In this document: piece after piece, positions 1,593 to 9,333 of the stretch
Position numbering within the stretch: position 1 is the first letter of the stretch
Layout: every line of letters begins with the position of its first letter
Source: Chitinophagaceae bacterium
GTDB lineage: Bacteria > Bacteroidota > Bacteroidia > Chitinophagales > Chitinophagaceae
Assembly (NCBI GenBank): GCA_947466405.1
Contig: CANICR010000011.1
Location: forward strand, 1 to 33,795
Length of the DNA stretch: 33,795 nucleotides
Direction of reading: 5' to 3'
The notes under the pieces: model-generated
Database searches by the model: none
What the model was told of the DNA's origin: nothing
The model's input: only the letters and a program-made list of their open reading frames with translations
Position numbers and translations under genes: made by a program

Positions 1593-2519
1593 TTATGCAG
1601 AAAGTTTTAGTTTTCCTTGAATGTAAATATTCTTTTCTTTTTGAAAAGGGTAAGCAGAAATATCATCTTTTTGAAATTCAATTCTTCTTATAATATCTTT
1701 CAACGAGGATATCTTTTGAACAGAATAGGGAATTGTATCTAATCCTGAAACAAACTTTAAAATATAATTATAAATACCAATTAGATTTCCGGCTAGCATT
1801 GTTACACCAAATAAATTCGAAGAAATAATAAGAGAGCTCCCAATAACAAATAATACCATGAGCTCTATTAGACCAAAATTAATAGCCTCCTTATCAGATA
1901 TTTTGATTTGCCATTTTCTTAATGTTGAATAATGTTTTTTTATTGAAGCGTCATTACCAACAGCAATTATGCTTACTTGTTTTTCGAGCTCGTCATTTTT
2001 TAACCTAGTAAGACGACTCATTTTCTTACCATAAACATAGCTGATAATCATTACAGGAAGTAGTATAATAAAACAAACAAGAACAACCTTGCTGTTATAA
2101 AAATACAAAATGATTAGCGAGCCAATAATATTATAAAGCGCTTCAATTATATAAGGCAAGTCGCTTTCTAAAAAATCTACAAGCTCTCTTGAAAGTGTGC
2201 TATGCGCGCTTAATTTCGAAATGTCTGATCGTGCAATTCTCCTAGACAAAAAACGAGTTACTAAAGAAGCGTAAATACCAGAATATGTTCTAGTGTCATA
2301 CATATGCCTTGCGGTTCCAATAATTAACCAGGCCAAATGAACAATAGATAAAACAATGACACCGTGATAGCTTCCTTTAATTAAATCATTAACAGCCACG
2401 CCAAGAAAATAGGGCCTTAATAACGAACCAAGCATTTCTAAACAAAAAAGCGTGTACGTAAATGTTAACTTAAAACGATATCGCTTCATTAACTTTCCTA
2501 TTACATCCAAACCAGCCAT
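1593..2519 (-). CDS. ABC transporter six-transmembrane domain protein without ATPase domain
   Basis: A 308-residue membrane protein with the layout of a type-I ABC exporter membrane domain: helices near residues 17-37 and 50-67, a central pair near 122-162 (including GSLIILYFYNS and the VLVCFIILLPVMIISYVYG segment), and a last pair near 215-255. Charged coupling segments (KKMSRLTRLKNDELEKQ) lie between. It ends after IYIQGKLKLSA, about where an ATPase domain would normally begin. No Walker A, signature or Walker B motif is present here or in the DNA downstream, so this is not a simple frameshift. Stand-alone domains of this kind exist (PF13748-like). It lies 100 bp after the ATP-grasp/SET gene on the same strand, suggesting export of that locus's product, but the ATPase partner is missing from the window. 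Confidence 0.8.
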   Translation of the reverse strand: MAGLDVIGKLMKRYRFKLTFTYTLFCLEMLGSLLRPYFLGVAVNDLIKGSYHGVIVLSIVHLAWLIIGTARHMYDTRTYSGIYASLVTRFLSRRIARSDISKLSAHSTLSRELVDFLESDLPYIIEALYNIIGSLIILYFYNSKVVLVCFIILLPVMIISYVYGKKMSRLTRLKNDELEKQVSIIAVGNDASIKKHYSTLRKWQIKISDKEAINFGLIELMVLFVIGSSLIISSNLFGVTMLAGNLIGIYNYILKFVSGLDTIPYSVQKISSLKDIIRRIEFQKDDISAYPFQKEKNIYIQGKLKLSA

Positions 2520-2619
2520 AAATAATTATTTAAAAAATAAATAAAAACCGCAATAAATCACGGATCCAATAAAGGAATAAAAAGGGAAAGTAGTTAGTAT
2601 GGAAACAAGAAAAAAGATT

Positions 2620-4080
2620 CTAATTGTTGCCCGAAGACTCTCTTAAGCTTATAGAGTTTTTATTAACACCTACAATAAGTCCTTTGCATTTTTTGCTGCC
2701 ACAAGAACAAAGAAAAGGCTCCATGTTTTCATCCAAAAAATGAGCATAATCAAGGGTTAGTTCTTCGTTTTTATTAATCGCACGTAAAGCAACAACATTA
2801 AGACCTTTATAGACAGTATTGGCTTCGCAACTATGATTTTGAGGAGCCCACTCTGCCGGATTCTCATCCCAAAGCAAAAATACCTCATTGCTTACAGGAT
2901 AGGCGTATTTTTTAAAATTTTCTAAATCTTTAACATTCCAAGTTGAATTTATATGTGACTTTGTAGCAATCCGTTGTGCTCGCTCTTCCCCATTGAAAAT
3001 CACCTCACCCAACTCAATGTTACTGGCAGCATAGATACCATAACCTGCAATAGCATTGCCCTTCATTTTGTATACTTTTTGCTTTCTATTATGTCGTGCT
3101 ATTCCTTCGTTAATAATTTTTTGTAAAAAGTCAGATGGACTAACGCCGTTGTTTTTTAAAATATAATCAGCAGAACCCTCATAACCGTTTTCGTAAAAAA
3201 CAGAACAAGTAAAGTTAATTTCTAGAAAAAACAACTCTCCGTTATCGTTCATCCTAAAATCTAATCGTGCATAACCTACGCCACCAAAGCCATTAAATAT
3301 TGCCGCAGAGGCTTTTTTTAATTGTTGAACAATTGCTTCGTCTTTTAATTCCACATTTGAATTAGGATGTAGCGAAGATGTCTTTAGGTCGTATGTTTTA
3401 AAAAAAACACCCTCTGGAAAAATGTATTCAATAGGATTATATATCGTTTGTGTTTTATTGTTTTCTGGATTATTAACCAACATAACGGTAAACTCACGCC
3501 CATCGATATACTCTTCCACTAATACAGGTCCATAGTCATCAACGATGGTTGCAATTTTGTTTTTTAACTCTTGAATATTTTTCACAAAAGAAAAAGCGTC
3601 AATACCAAGACTATCTCCAGCTTTCGATGGTTTTACAAATAAGGGATAATGTAAATGACTACACGACAATTCAATATCTTCTATTTTTTCAATCAGGGCA
3701 TACTGCGGCGTTTTTATTCCTTCTAAATAGGCCACGTATTTCATTAACTCTTTTGAAGGGTCATATAAAACAGAAGACGGTCCGGTAAAAGGAAGGTTGA
3801 GTTGCTCTAAAAAATATACAACATCAATTGAGGGTACATCCCATTCTAAATAACCTTCGCAAAGGTTTACATATACGGTATAATTCTTTTTACTAAGCTC
3901 TTTAAGTTGTTTATAGGTAGATAGTTTATTTAAAAAAACATGATCAACAATAGCATTTGGAAGAAGTTTTGATAAGTCTCTTGGAGGGTCATAGTTTTTA
4001 TAATCAACACCTGATGTGGAGTAGTCTGGTTGTAATACACAAACCCTCATTATGTCATTTTCATTTTTTCGTTTGTCCAT
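2620..4080 (-). CDS. ATP-grasp ligase fused to C-terminal SET domain
   Basis: A two-domain protein of 486 residues. Residues about 10-330 form a D-Ala-D-Ala-ligase-like ATP-grasp: FVKPSKAGDSLG with the nucleotide lysine K150, LVEEYIDGREF (E189, E190, R195, E196), ARLDFRM (R272, D274) and the metal-binding FLEIN (E287, N289). Residues about 335-470 form a SET methyltransferase domain with GYGIYAA (GxG AdoMet loop), NHSCEAN at 415-421, LTLDYA with the expected catalytic Tyr445, and a post-SET CxCx4C zinc motif (C458, C460, C465). The expected activities are amide-bond formation and AdoMet-dependent amine or lysine methylation; the substrate is unknown. Its ATG overlaps the TGA of the preceding ligase gene by one base. 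An internal Met11 (4050) is an alternative start that better matches the first beta strand (MRVCVLQPD). Confidence 0.85.
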   Translation of the reverse strand: MDKRKNENDIMRVCVLQPDYSTSGVDYKNYDPPRDLSKLLPNAIVDHVFLNKLSTYKQLKELSKKNYTVYVNLCEGYLEWDVPSIDVVYFLEQLNLPFTGPSSVLYDPSKELMKYVAYLEGIKTPQYALIEKIEDIELSCSHLHYPLFVKPSKAGDSLGIDAFSFVKNIQELKNKIATIVDDYGPVLVEEYIDGREFTVMLVNNPENNKTQTIYNPIEYIFPEGVFFKTYDLKTSSLHPNSNVELKDEAIVQQLKKASAAIFNGFGGVGYARLDFRMNDNGELFFLEINFTCSVFYENGYEGSADYILKNNGVSPSDFLQKIINEGIARHNRKQKVYKMKGNAIAGYGIYAASNIELGEVIFNGEERAQRIATKSHINSTWNVKDLENFKKYAYPVSNEVFLLWDENPAEWAPQNHSCEANTVYKGLNVVALRAINKNEELTLDYAHFLDENMEPFLCSCGSKKCKGLIVGVNKNSISLRESSGNN

Positions 4081-5225
4081 CAGCTATTTAATTTAAACCC
4101 ATCTTTGTATCTATTAATTGCATTTATTAATATCGCCTCAATCAATTGTGTAAAAGTAACATCAGAGAACTTTAAAATAGCCCCGATTGAAGTAAAATTT
4201 TCATCTTCACTTATTCCGCATTGTGCATTCGTTTCTAATACAAATAACTTTTGGGATGATGCATCCATTCTAATATCAACCCGGGTATACCCCGTTCCTT
4301 TATTTGCTACAAAGGCATCCCAGCTTAATTTTTTAATGGAATCGATAAGGTTACTATTTGGTATTTGGTATTCGTAAAAGTTTTCTTCGTTTGGCATTGA
4401 AGTTTCTTTCTCATAGATTTCCCAAAGACGATCAAATGAAAGAAACCTTTCTTTTTCTGGCAATGAAGGATGAAAAACGCGTTCAACCGGCATAAACACT
4501 TTCGCTTCGGTTGGTTTATCATAATAACCGCAAACAAAAGAAGTGAATTCGGGACCAACAATAAAACGTTCTGCAATTAATCCATCCGTAGTTAAGTTCC
4601 ATCCGTGATACCCTTCAAATAAATCATTCAACAACAACCGAAGCTCTTCTTCTGTTTCAACAACATTTTTTATTCCAACACCCATGCTTCCTCCAGAAAC
4701 TGCAGGTTTTATGATTATTGGAGTGCCTAAATAATCAAAAACATCTTTTGTGTTAATAGCGGAAGAATAAATAGGCATCCATTTTGCATTTGTAACCCCC
4801 GCCTCATCAAAAGATTTTTTCATTGGTATTTTTGACGTGGTGATATTGTAAAAATATTCATCAGCACCAGTAAAAATAAGTTCATTTTCTATTAATGATT
4901 TAATGATAGAAATTCCGGGCGTTCCATTTATCTCATCTCCATCGCAAAGGTTGATAACAATAGGAAAACAATGGCCTAACTTTTTTTCATTGGCAATATC
5001 GGCAATAATTATTTTTTGATTTACTAAATTAATGGGTTGCCATTTCCAATTAATGGCCAGCGCTTTAAAAACTCTACTATACTCTTCAATGCTCTGAGAA
5101 AAATCATAATAGTAGTCTATGTTTTTGTCTTTAGATTCCAAATGAGGCGCTAGTACCCAAACTTTTAATTTAGAATACGCGTCACTAGAAAAGCTATTAA
5201 GAAGAGAAACTAAGGCGGTAGACAT
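4080..5225 (-). CDS. ATP-grasp ligase, D-Ala-D-Ala ligase-like
   Basis: A 381-residue carboxylate-amine ligase homologue. Visible ATP-grasp elements are IIIKPAVSGGSMGVG with K173, IAERFIVGPEFT (E219, E226), GYTRVDIRMD (R315, D317) and LFVLETNAQCG with the metal-binding E331 and N333. The N-terminal INLCDGD segment resembles the ligase N-domain strand that contacts the first substrate. It is longer than Ddl (about 300-320 residues), with extra sequence near 245-290. It is unlikely to be the housekeeping Ddl because it is paired with a second, SET-fused ATP-grasp and coupled to SET genes. Its start codon follows the stop codon of the SET gene with no base between, and its own stop overlaps the next start, so the three genes are almost certainly co-translated. 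Confidence 0.85.
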   Translation of the reverse strand: MSTALVSLLNSFSSDAYSKLKVWVLAPHLESKDKNIDYYYDFSQSIEEYSRVFKALAINWKWQPINLVNQKIIIADIANEKKLGHCFPIVINLCDGDEINGTPGISIIKSLIENELIFTGADEYFYNITTSKIPMKKSFDEAGVTNAKWMPIYSSAINTKDVFDYLGTPIIIKPAVSGGSMGVGIKNVVETEEELRLLLNDLFEGYHGWNLTTDGLIAERFIVGPEFTSFVCGYYDKPTEAKVFMPVERVFHPSLPEKERFLSFDRLWEIYEKETSMPNEENFYEYQIPNSNLIDSIKKLSWDAFVANKGTGYTRVDIRMDASSQKLFVLETNAQCGISEDENFTSIGAILKFSDVTFTQLIEAILINAINRYKDGFKLNS

Positions 5226-5729
5226 TTATGAAATAGATTTTTTACCGATCTCTCTTTGTACAAAATCAGTTAATTTATATTTTAATAGTAGATCAATTGG
5301 AACATGAAGTGCACCGCGAATGGTGTGTAAACAATTATTTGACCCGCACCTACATTCAAAAGGCTGAGCCATATCGAGTTCCGTTGAAGGATAAAAAAAA
5401 CAAAGCTGATCTTTTGCGCTAATCTCTTTTAATGCAATTAATTGCATTGAATTAGTGTCAAAGAAAACATTGGGATTACAACTATGGTTTGTGTATTGTA
5501 GAAATTCGGGGGACAGAGAAATGTGTGTATTTGTATCAATCTGAATAGTAAGATAATTTGGAACATAAAAAGTGTTGCCTGCAAAAAAAACAGTTAATAC
5601 ATCTCCCATTTTGAAATTACTTAGCGAGACGAGAGACTTTTCTCCCGAGAGGGAATTAACAACAACGGCCGCAAATTCATGACTGCTAAAAACCGATGGT
5701 TTGTTTTTTATTGTTACAGGTTGAATCAT
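5226..5729 (-). CDS. stand-alone SET-domain protein
   Basis: A 167-residue protein whose second half is clearly SET plus post-SET: QYTNHSCNPNVFF (NHSC at 81-84), an F-F-Y segment with the expected catalytic Tyr113, and the zinc motif C126-x-C128-x4-C133. The N-terminal half is poorly conserved: where most SET domains have the GxG AdoMet loop, this one reads VVVNSLSGEKSLVSL and no clear GxG is visible, unlike the SET domain of the fusion protein. It may be a divergent enzyme or a non-catalytic partner of the fusion. It is the first gene of the coupled SET/ATP-grasp/ATP-grasp-SET run. Bacterial SET proteins are mostly uncharacterised; protein-lysine methylation is the family's known chemistry, and the substrate here is unknown. 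Confidence 0.8.
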   Translation of the reverse strand: MIQPVTIKNKPSVFSSHEFAAVVVNSLSGEKSLVSLSNFKMGDVLTVFFAGNTFYVPNYLTIQIDTNTHISLSPEFLQYTNHSCNPNVFFDTNSMQLIALKEISAKDQLCFFYPSTELDMAQPFECRCGSNNCLHTIRGALHVPIDLLLKYKLTDFVQREIGKKSIS

Positions 5730-7821: not shown

Positions 7822-9333
7822 CTAGCTATTTATCATATTTAAAATTTCTTCTACAATAATTCTTTCATTGCTAAGCCTTGGTATTTTATGTTGGCCTCCA
7901 ACTTGACCTTTTTTTTGTAACCATTTAGAAAAAGTTCCTTTGGGTAATGAGTGAATTTTTGGTAAACCAAGCGCAATGTCTTTATACCTCTTCGCTTCGT
8001 AATCACTATTAACATTTTTTAAAGCAATGTCAAGCTCCTCGGTAAATATTTTTAAATCAACAGGTTCTCGATCAAATTCAATGAGCCATTCATGGGCTCC
8101 GTTTTTTTCTTCAGAAAAATAAATAGGCGCTGCGGTATAATCCGAAATAATAGCGTTTGTTTTTTTGGTTGCAACAGTAATCGCAGCGTCTGAATTATCT
8201 ACAATAACTTCTTCTCCAAAAGCGTTTATATAATGTTTCAGCCTTCCGGTTACTTTTATTTTATAAGGATCAACCGAAGTAAAAGCAATGGTGTCTCCTA
8301 CAAGATAACGCCATAAGCCACCGGTAGTAGTAATTATTATAGCATAATTTTTACCAGGAATAACCTTATCCAGCCCAATTGTATTTGGAATTTTTTTTCC
8401 ATATTCTTCAATGGGCATAAACTCATAAAAAATACCATGCTCTGTGAATAGCGTCATTCCATCATCATTTGGATTTTCCTGACCGGCAAAAAAACCTTCG
8501 CTTGCATTATATATTTCGAGGTAGTTTATTTTTTTACCAATAATTTTTTCAAATTGATCACGGTATGGAATAAACGAAACGCCTCCATTTATATAGAGCT
8601 CAAGATTTGGCCAAATATCTTTGATGTATTCCTTTTGCTTTATTTCTAAAATACGTTTGAGTAATAAAAGGGTCCACGTGGGAACGCCCGCTAAAGAGGT
8701 TACATTTTCGTTAGCGGTTGACTGAGCGAGCTTTTCAATTTTTTCTCCCCAATCGTCCATTAAGGCAACGCTAAGCTCCGGCGTTCGAAGCCACTGTCCC
8801 CAAAAGGGAGTGTTCTGTATTAAAACGGCGCTGAGGTCTCCATATTGAATATCTTCATTAAGTTGATTTATTTGGTGTGACCCACCCACCACCAAACCTT
8901 TTCCAGTGAGCAAATCGCTTGACGGAAAGTTGTTATAGTAATTAGTCAGCACATCTTTACTTGCTTTAAAATGGTTTTCTTGTAAACTTTCGTCGCTTAC
9001 AGGAATAAACTTGCTTTTATTGTTTGTTGTTCCGCTGCTTTTAGCAAACCATTTAACTGGTGTATTCCAAAGTACATTTTCTTCACCTTTCAGCATCTGT
9101 TCAATATAAGGTTGCAGGTCTTCGTATTCATGTATGGGCACTTTTCTTTTATATTCTTTCAAAGAAAAAAGCGAAGAGAAGTTATATTTTTTTCCAAATT
9201 GAGTGTATTGAGCTGTGGTAACAAGGTCTTGCAAAACGGCTCTTTGCGCATCAATAGAATGGCTTGTCCAATTTTTAATTCGCCAAAGGCGCATCCTTGC
9301 CAACTTTGATATTGTTGAAGAAAGAAACTTCAT
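7822..9333 (-). CDS. GH3 auxin-responsive-promoter family protein (acyl-adenylate amidoligase fold)
   Basis: A 503-residue member of PF03321. Adenylation motifs seen: FAKSSGTTNNKSKF (99-103 is SSGTT), YNASEGFF, and GLWRYLVGDTIAF, all in the expected order; the C-terminal GGQHKIPRLSNER segment is also typical. Plant GH3 enzymes adenylate hormone carboxylates and join them to amino acids. Bacteroidota carry a widespread GH3 gene whose substrate has not been established to my knowledge. It follows lptB by 53 bp on the same strand and precedes fabG by 66 bp. It is likely an acyl/carboxylate-activating enzyme; a direct role in envelope lipid chemistry is only a guess from the neighbour. Confidence 0.92.
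   Translation of the reverse strand: MKFLSSTISKLARMRLWRIKNWTSHSIDAQRAVLQDLVTTAQYTQFGKKYNFSSLFSLKEYKRKVPIHEYEDLQPYIEQMLKGEENVLWNTPVKWFAKSSGTTNNKSKFIPVSDESLQENHFKASKDVLTNYYNNFPSSDLLTGKGLVVGGSHQINQLNEDIQYGDLSAVLIQNTPFWGQWLRTPELSVALMDDWGEKIEKLAQSTANENVTSLAGVPTWTLLLLKRILEIKQKEYIKDIWPNLELYINGGVSFIPYRDQFEKIIGKKINYLEIYNASEGFFAGQENPNDDGMTLFTEHGIFYEFMPIEEYGKKIPNTIGLDKVIPGKNYAIIITTTGGLWRYLVGDTIAFTSVDPYKIKVTGRLKHYINAFGEEVIVDNSDAAITVATKKTNAIISDYTAAPIYFSEEKNGAHEWLIEFDREPVDLKIFTEELDIALKNVNSDYEAKRYKDIALGLPKIHSLPKGTFSKWLQKKGQVGGQHKIPRLSNERIIVEEILNMINS

Follow-up and report, generated by a model that had tools for sequence, protein, structure and literature searches.

A recurrent SET and ATP-grasp gene module of Chitinophagaceae and its possible small-molecule product

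SET domains are chiefly known for methylating lysines in proteins. In the stretch of Chitinophagaceae DNA analyzed here (the window; 33,795 nucleotides of contig CANICR010000011.1), SET domains are encoded side by side with ATP-grasp ligases and, in one gene, within the same chain as a ligase. This raises the question of what such a compact core of three enzymes might make, and whether the membrane gene next to it takes part. The features of the locus are as follows:

5226-5729, minus strand: SET, 167 aa; open reading frame with Pfam SET PF00856
4080-5225, minus strand: GRASP, an ATP-grasp protein of 381 aa; carboxylate-amine ligase of predicted Ddl fold, Pfam Dala_Dala_lig_C PF07478
2620-4080, minus strand: FUS, an ATP-grasp-SET fusion of 486 aa; PF07478 and a C-terminal SET PF00856
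1593-2519, minus strand: TMD, an ABC-exporter-type membrane domain of 308 aa; ABC_membrane_3 PF13748

Gene order and recurrence in Chitinophagaceae

The list of open reading frames bears out the four minus-strand genes of the initial annotation, with their ends and their tight spacing: SET abuts GRASP, GRASP and FUS overlap by one base, and 100 bp separate FUS from TMD. The SET, ATP-grasp, and ATP-grasp-SET assignments likewise hold, as the Pfam domains of all four proteins are above curated cut-offs. FUS divides into an ATP-grasp part (approximately residues 10-333) and a SET plus post-SET part (approximately residues 335-486).

FUS is carried by 103 of 394 sampled Chitinophagaceae genomes, in 35 of 92 genera, and a strong FUS match was found in 37 of 59 genus members versus none of 39 genomes from other families of the order. 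Relatives of FUS are present on 361 contig stretches in a species-level genome collection; among the carriers are the culturable Terrimonas ginsenosidimutans and Sediminibacterium soli. The named loci compared here are the best 80 of these 361. Counts were made on the 62 loci in which FUS is flanked by 3 kb or more on each side, and the 18 with less were left out. Among the 62, the three-gene core is collinear in 53 loci and all four genes are collinear in 30. This collinear grouping is not due to chance. The order is thus not unique to one genome; the check initially proposed was for recurrence without fixed neighbors, which is seen within Chitinophagaceae, while Bacteroidota as a whole proved too wide a range for the four-gene order. 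A further 35 loci were taken from 34 genera of the family (all fusion-positive genera except g246); the cluster holds GRASP in 35 of them, SET in 32, and TMD in 16. In the alignments of these proteins, 4 of 35 genus rows were left out of A5, 5 of 35 out of A6, and 7 of 32 out of A7, and A8 was built on 20 of the 40 rows of A5; residues are called invariant below with respect to aligned rows only.

Four fusion-positive genomes without an adjacent SET gene were searched, and three of them encode a full-length SET elsewhere (E values of 1e-63 to 1e-68); in genome G506, the non-adjacent gene lies approximately 1.7 Mb away on the same contig. One genome of 280 contigs and 97% completeness (G044) contains FUS and GRASP and gave no stand-alone SET match. 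In another (G1035), GRASP-SET, FUS, and TMD are distributed over three contigs, and all are present. The SET genes located elsewhere in three of four genomes, together with this complete set on three contigs, suggest a functional tie beyond linkage. Five genus mates without FUS gave no SET match at E ≤ 1e-8 and no TMD match at E ≤ 1e-15. As a side observation, the distance matrices of the three proteins are correlated (r 0.52-0.68), a value that has no housekeeping-gene baseline and was not used as evidence.

No gene outside the set occurs in more than 11 of the 35 loci among the clusters listed, and the most recurrent outside genes, by our reading, resemble housekeeping genes belonging to a single common site. 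Upstream genes for a cupin, a carbonic anhydrase, and an SDR were rejected as members, being within 5 kb of FUS in only 9, 8, and 8 of the 62 loci, respectively. The GH3 and LptB-like genes were rejected because they lie at or beyond 5 kb from FUS even in the window; GH3 was found in 7 of 80 gene rows, which extend over at most seven genes ahead of FUS and six behind it (best 80 of 361 relatives). Spread on plasmids or phages was also dismissed, since no record covers 80% of FUS and partial matches fall mostly over the ATP-grasp part; GRASP had no plasmid match at E ≤ 1e-6. A search of the four proteins with PADLOC for a known defense system returned a single match, FUS to Csx1, with an E value of 0.033 over 22 residues, and this candidate was set aside.

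Graspetide (RiPP) pathways resemble the module in that an ATP-grasp ligase is accompanied by further modifying or transport genes. Their ligases are of another ATP-grasp type, whereas those of the module are of the Ddl type. Unlike these pathways, the module has no recurrent precursor candidate nearby in the 35 loci: 144 small open reading frames lie within 1.5 kb, and the largest related group among them comes from 2 loci. Since no small-ORF group is found in more than 2 of 35 loci, no local ribosomal precursor is seen, and a RiPP with a local precursor was rejected.

Relationship of the two ligases to Ddl

The AlphaFold models of GRASP (pLDDT 88.0) and FUS (pLDDT 89.9, pTM 0.87) predict a Ddl fold for both ligases. 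In Foldseek searches, the 50 matches listed for GRASP are Ddl or D-Ala:D-lactate ligases and the matches of FUS are Ddl, with a probability of 1.00 and TM-scores of up to approximately 0.8 by target length, at sequence identities to Ddl of 14-22% among the matches listed. K173, D317, E331, and N333 of GRASP are invariant in 34/34 aligned rows, and so are K150, D274, E287, and N289 in the ATP-grasp part of FUS in 40/40. We take the invariant Asp, Glu, and Asn to be Mg/ATP ligands, as in Ddl.

With such a fold, one of the ligases might simply be the only Ddl of the organism. This was ruled out by a canonical Ddl of 327 aa encoded on contig C13. Moreover, FUS and GRASP form one clade (100/100) and eight Ddls form a separate clade (100/100) in the tree; the canonical Ddl elsewhere and this separation together argue that neither ligase is the organism's Ddl. 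The fold and the Ddl-family profile matches would also suit a variant of cell-wall precursor synthesis, in which the ligases, like VanA or Ddl paralogues, make an unusual peptidoglycan dipeptide. We consider this very improbable, as the Ddl and Van profile scores listed fall far short of the curated cut-offs; for the curated NCBIfam Ddl models, the best score was 88.1 against 245.65 for FUS and 61.2 against 243 for GRASP. In the ligase alignment, two motifs of the Ddl encoded by this genome were not seen, the N-terminal Glu motif and N-x-x-P-G, and an invariant Cys stands at the Pro position of the latter. Furthermore, no additional gene recurs widely with the set, and SET methylation has no obvious place in a cell-wall route.

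The SET domains and BurB

BurB is the closest solved relative of the stand-alone SET, far ahead of any histone methyltransferase in both profile and single-sequence searches. The SET profile matched BurB with an E value of 3.2e-20 over positions 19-147 of 167 (next match, 5.9e-9), and the single sequence matched it with 2.2e-14 (next match, 3.9e-5). Two other SET proteins of the same genome, serving as controls, gave no BurB match at E ≤ 1. BurB is described as a SET-domain methionine S-methyltransferase of the malleicyprol pathway in Burkholderia thailandensis that acts on free methionine (PMC12542666, PMC7496086). In the second report, the DMSP route to which the enzyme belongs supplies an NRPS-PKS line, and BurB is introduced as a SET enzyme of a kind rarely seen in prokaryotic secondary metabolism; the passages considered mention no ATP-grasp partner, whereas two are present here (PMC7496086).

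N81, H82, Y113, and four Cys of SET are invariant in 30/30 aligned rows. In a hand-read alignment, BurB and SET share the Y-x-S-T-E motif, the His of the SAM-adenine site, the equivalent of Tyr124, and the post-SET Cys residues, the roles of the BurB residues being taken from PMC12542666. They differ in the same hand-read alignment at Leu92 of BurB, which corresponds to Asn81 in SET, and Asn is typical of protein lysine methyltransferases; because this Asn stands at the Leu92 position, a lysine-like amine acceptor is possible. The kinship to BurB is one of sequence similarity. In the SET tree, which has two very long branches and represents BurB only by an ortholog located in a polyketide cluster of Eleftheria terrae, deep forks are weak (52/88), and no two of BurB, SET, and the fusion SET are united with support.

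In the SET half of FUS, N415, H416, Y445, C418, C458, C460, and C465 are invariant in 40/40 aligned rows. The FUS-SET profile matched BurB first (3.2e-14), over the C-terminal half, and MLL1 with 4.4e-13 over nearly the full domain; the single sequence from the window gave 5.8e-8 for MLL1 versus 1.2e-4 for BurB. In the reading preferred below, this half would probably also methylate an amino acid or an amino-acid-derived acceptor. To judge from these alignments, the catalytic residues checked in the module enzymes are intact.

The locus had initially been read as building a small amide or peptide-like product that is N-methylated and exported, or else as modifying a cellular protein. A small-molecule product is favored, as free methionine is the substrate of BurB, the enzyme that the stand-alone SET most resembles. 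The same similarity does not speak for N-methylation, since BurB methylates sulfur.

Export, variant layouts, and candidate products

TMD has six hydrophobic segments by hydropathy, and its only Pfam matches are PF13748 and PF00664, the membrane domains that it has in common with ABC exporters. The nucleotide-binding domain of these exporters is absent from the window protein, in which no Walker A motif, LSGGQ-type motif, or ABC_tran match was found. The ABC exporter membrane domain initially placed 100 bp beyond FUS therefore stands as a membrane domain but not as a complete exporter. TMD is present in 36 of 294 family genomes, and 34 of these 36 are on the fusion-positive list. Of the two others, G695 lacks a GRASP match, its SET match being short (E 1e-10), and G598 contains SET and a GRASP that runs off the contig end, so its fusion was probably lost to assembly. 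In 20 of 22 fusion-positive genomes without TMD beside the fusion, none was found elsewhere at E ≤ 1e-15. As TMD is in only 16 of the 35 loci and is missing from these 20 genomes, export is not essential. The initial claim of export was not sustained, as TMD has no ATPase domain and many systems lack it; we regard export as a plausible, secondary feature, with TMD as an accessory.

Other classes of the phylum contain variants with different layouts. In one genus of family f104, the order is SET, fusion, full ABC exporter, and second SET, and by test, 7 of 9 loci have the full exporter behind the fusion. At the locus of another relative, L189, the fusion lies among gamma-glutamyltranspeptidase, formylglutamate amidohydrolase, and glutathione-synthetase-like genes. 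Related tandem ATP-grasp genes adjoin a GNAT acetyltransferase gene and a lysine 2,3-aminomutase-type gene in 5 of 5 loci tested, a pairing known from the synthesis of the osmolyte acetyl-beta-lysine. This neighborhood, together with the patchy occurrence of TMD, would fit a small product that stays in the cell (a compatible solute, for instance, or a storage peptide) and has no dedicated exporter, with TMD serving, say, self-protection or signaling. We regard this as doubtful, given the full exporter behind the fusion in the f104 genus and the near confinement of the Chitinophagaceae TMD to fusion-listed genomes.

SET domains mostly methylate protein lysines, and the module could accordingly modify proteins: a protein would receive amino acids from the ligases and methyl groups, on itself or on the tag, from the SET domains. 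The nearly full-length match of the FUS SET to MLL1 agrees with this, and a MATCAP-type peptidase gene lies near the fusion at L189; however, this neighborhood was seen in one genome, of a family in which 1 of 58 genomes carries the fusion. In the literature searched, two papers mention both domains, and one of them describes a single protein that combines a SET-like with an ATP-grasp-like domain, eukaryotic TTLL12; this architecture might suggest the same. In the TTLL12 report, its N-terminal SET domain is most like SETD3/4/6, methyltransferase activity was not found in assays, and the ligase is of the TTL type (PMC3520985). The domain order of FUS is reversed, with the SET domain C-terminal and its motifs intact, and its ligase is of the Ddl type. 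Moreover, the best match of the stand-alone SET is a small-molecule enzyme rather than a histone enzyme, in contrast to the two control SET proteins without a BurB match; Ddl, whose fold the ligases are predicted to have, uses free amino acids; and among the clusters listed, no candidate gene for a substrate protein accompanies the set in many loci. Protein modification thus seems unlikely to us.

The reading that we prefer, at about an even chance, is a dedicated small-molecule pathway that forms a short methylated amide or peptide-like product from free amino acids and exports it where TMD or an exporter is present. In such a pathway, the BurB-like SET, and probably also the SET half of FUS, would use S-adenosylmethionine to methylate an amino acid or an acceptor derived from one. 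The two ATP-grasp enzymes of predicted Ddl fold would convert a carboxylate to its activated acyl phosphate and couple it with an amine, resulting in a short methylated amide or peptide-like compound. The membrane protein, where present, or the full ABC exporter in the distant version may then move the product across the membrane. We infer free amino acids as substrates, methylation and ligation acting on one product, and its export.

A bolder and rather improbable version is a ribosome-independent peptide pathway of a new class, with SET domains as tailoring enzymes. Here, SET would produce a sulfonium or permethylated amino acid (e.g., S-methylmethionine). The two ligases, of which one carries its own SET domain, would assemble it into a charged methylated di- or tripeptide for export. 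Such a pathway would have spread within Chitinophagaceae, and another class of the phylum would harbor its simpler relatives (SET, fusion, full exporter, and second SET).

Should a methylated peptide prove to be the product of the module, SET domains would have a tailoring role in a bacterial peptide pathway that is widespread, as FUS relatives on 361 contig stretches indicate. The label 'protein-lysine N-methyltransferase', carried by 8 of 10 matches among plasmid relatives of SET, would then need re-reading.

Gene organization and co-occurrence

The four genes lie on the minus strand of the window, within a source assembly of 2.08 Mb in 188 contigs, and are listed here in transcription order with their Pfam assignments.

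5226-5729 (-): SET, first; SET-domain protein of 167 aa
4080-5225 (-): GRASP, second; ATP-grasp protein of 381 aa
2620-4080 (-): FUS, third; ATP-grasp-SET fusion of 486 aa
1593-2519 (-): TMD, fourth; ABC-type membrane-domain protein of 308 aa

The initial annotation had placed all four at exactly these positions, and its domain assignments are borne out by Pfam. Its label of exporter over-reads the TMD protein taken alone, because Pfam and a motif check found no ATPase domain or motif in it. The recurrence of the gene order without fixed neighbours, for which it proposed a search, holds within Chitinophagaceae. Among the 62 of 80 named loci (the best 80 of 361 relatives of FUS) that extend at least 3 kb on either side of FUS, 53 have SET, GRASP and FUS in collinear order and 30 have all four genes so arranged; GRASP lies within 5 kb of FUS in 62/62, SET in 54/62 and TMD in 37/62. 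Packing is tight, the SET-GRASP gap being 0-19 bp in 42 of 61 cases. Across 35 loci from 34 Chitinophagaceae genera, the cluster contains GRASP in 35, SET in 32 (placed after TMD in one locus, L131) and TMD in 16, while flanking genes differ from genus to genus.

Several neighbours were also recorded. At 695-1592 lie an SSB-like gene and a small gene with a weak PF09889 match, possibly encoding a treble-clef protein; they have counterparts within 5 kb of FUS in 21/62 and 20/62 loci, respectively, accompanied in several loci by a helicase-like gene. The pair probably marks a chromosomal location shared since long ago and is not a component of the set. A GH3-family protein (PF03321) is encoded upstream at 7822-9333 on the same strand, and GH3 appears in 7 of the 80 named gene rows, which extend no further than seven genes before FUS and six beyond it. 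One record titled as a Streptomyces griseus MAG (L050) carries the module without SET beside GRASP and has the same neighbours as the window; its title looks like that of a mislabelled or mixed bin.

The genes also occur together without being linked. When four FUS-positive genomes lacking an adjacent SET (G506, G531, G668 and G044) were searched, a full-length SET was found elsewhere in the first three, in G506 on the same contig about 1.7 Mb from the module; the genome search of G044 found no SET beyond that of FUS itself. TMD sits on a separate contig in G525, and a GRASP-SET pair, FUS and TMD are spread over three different contigs in G1035. TMD is present in 36 of 294 Chitinophagaceae genomes, and 34 of these 36 are among the listed FUS-positive genomes, against a base rate of 103/394 (binomial P = 5e-18, ignoring relatedness). 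Of the remaining two, G598 probably misses FUS through an assembly break, since SET and GRASP are present and GRASP lies at a contig end, and G695 yielded neither a GRASP match nor a full-length SET. Neither TMD nor SET was found in five FUS-less genus mates, and TMD (E<=1e-15) is absent from 20 of 22 FUS-positive genomes without TMD next to FUS. Co-occurrence without linkage argues more strongly than operon layout alone that SET, GRASP, FUS and TMD serve one function, TMD being an optional part.

Distribution of the fusion and likely export

Named carriers of close FUS copies, among the best 80 of 361 relatives, belong to Chitinophagaceae (for example Ferruginibacter paludis, Sediminibacterium soli and Terrimonas ginsenosidimutans), and the host family is assigned accordingly. 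FUS is present in 103 of 394 sampled genomes of the family (35 of 92 genera). Strong matches (E<=1e-130) occur in 37 of 59 members of the host genus, own genome counted, and in 0 of 39 genomes from other families of the order. At class level, 395 genomes were sampled and seven gave matches at E<=1e-20: four at full length, all from Chitinophagaceae, and three over the ATP-grasp part. Outside the class, a phylum-level search and a search around G1034 recovered fusion proteins in families f104, f110, f140, f114 and f143, the last with two hits, one spanning the ATP-grasp part only.

All nine loci from one f104 genus contain FUS, with SET ahead of it in seven and a second short SET in eight. A full ABC exporter with ATPase follows FUS in seven (two by Pfam, five by BLAST to one of those two); L187 has a 694-aa ORF in its place, and the L210 stretch ends at FUS. 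This gene content supports product export in that lineage and makes export likely in TMD-bearing Chitinophagaceae.

The ligases and SET domains

Whether either ligase is the organism's only D-alanine--D-alanine ligase (Ddl), a question raised by the initial annotation, is answered in the negative: the genome encodes a separate canonical Ddl of 327 aa, adjoining a putative PASTA-type gene. Structural models of FUS and GRASP (AlphaFold pLDDT 89.9 and 88.0) find Ddl-type structures as their best matches, at 14-22% identity among the matches listed. ATP and Mg residues are invariant across the aligned rows of both ligases, as is a Cys three residues past the Mg-binding Asn, whereas the substrate-site motifs seen in the host's own Ddl are replaced. 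Both score far below the cut-offs of the Ddl profiles listed, and together they form one clade (support 100/100) that is distinct both from eight Ddls and from the ATP-grasp proteins of other lineages, many of these tandem pairs. On profile scores, phylogeny, replaced motifs and the presence of a canonical Ddl, GRASP and FUS are judged not to be the organism's Ddl.

BurB, a SET-domain methionine S-methyltransferase (PDB 9l4t), was the best match of the stand-alone SET profile among solved structures (E 3.2e-20; 75.6 bits), and a histone enzyme came second (5.9e-9, 39 bits); the window SET as a single sequence gave 2.2e-14 for BurB and 3.9e-5 for the next. Two other SET proteins of the host genome, searched likewise as a control, had no BurB match at E<=1. 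BurB converts free methionine to S-methylmethionine, according to two reports (PMC12542666; PMC7496086). In the profile alignment, read by hand, its Tyr124, His93 and Thr73 correspond to SET Tyr113, His82 and Thr61, and a common Y-x-S-T-E motif is also present. The fusion SET gives a less clear-cut picture: in its profile search BurB leads (3.2e-14, C-terminal half), closely followed by the histone methyltransferase MLL1 (4.4e-13, nearly full domain), and as a single sequence the window domain is nearer MLL1 (5.8e-8) than BurB (1.2e-4). SET and fusion-SET form separate lineages in a tree that does not settle the placement of BurB.

Among plasmid relatives of SET from outside Bacteroidota, an Eleftheria terrae BurB ortholog (L226 7914-8435, 249 bits) belongs to a type I polyketide/thioester-reductase cluster that also encodes a dioxygenase, an aminotransferase and an aldehyde dehydrogenase. 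A SET protein annotated as hypothetical on a Rhizobium bangladeshense plasmid (L224 5952-7864) is flanked by asparagine-synthase-like and SAM-decarboxylase genes. Plasmid SET neighbourhoods in Streptomyces and Sphingomonas gave no clear lead.

Related arrangements and the proposed product

Tandem Ddl-like ATP-grasp genes without SET were found at L194 6687-8797, L195 6364-8552, L196 5929-8145, L198 7310-9524, L202 5403-7414 and L197 6006-8230. By Pfam, genes for a GNAT acetyltransferase and for a radical SAM enzyme of the lysine 2,3-aminomutase type adjoin them in 5/5 loci (L194, L195, L196, L198 and L202), which possibly make small products containing beta-lysine; L195 additionally encodes a membrane protein with PF13748, truncated where the stretch ends. 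In one genome (L189 2041-10099), from a family with FUS in 1 of 58 genomes, FUS lies amid gamma-glutamyltranspeptidase, N-formylglutamate amidohydrolase, MATCAP-type peptidase and glutathione-synthetase-like ATP-grasp genes. In the literature searched, SET and ATP-grasp domains are joined in one published protein, TTLL12 (PMC3520985). No published description of this gene set was found there, and its novelty is claimed relative to that literature.

The main rival to a small-molecule product is a protein-modifying role for the module. A local ribosomal precursor is disfavoured because no small ORF recurs by the module: among 144 such ORFs from 35 loci, the largest related group spans 2 loci. 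By analogy with BurB the methyl acceptor would be sulfur; given the Asn-His in these SETs, it may also be an amine. The simplest account remains that SET, GRASP and FUS constitute a small-molecule pathway, in which an amino acid would be methylated and ligated and, in part of the systems, the product would be exported.
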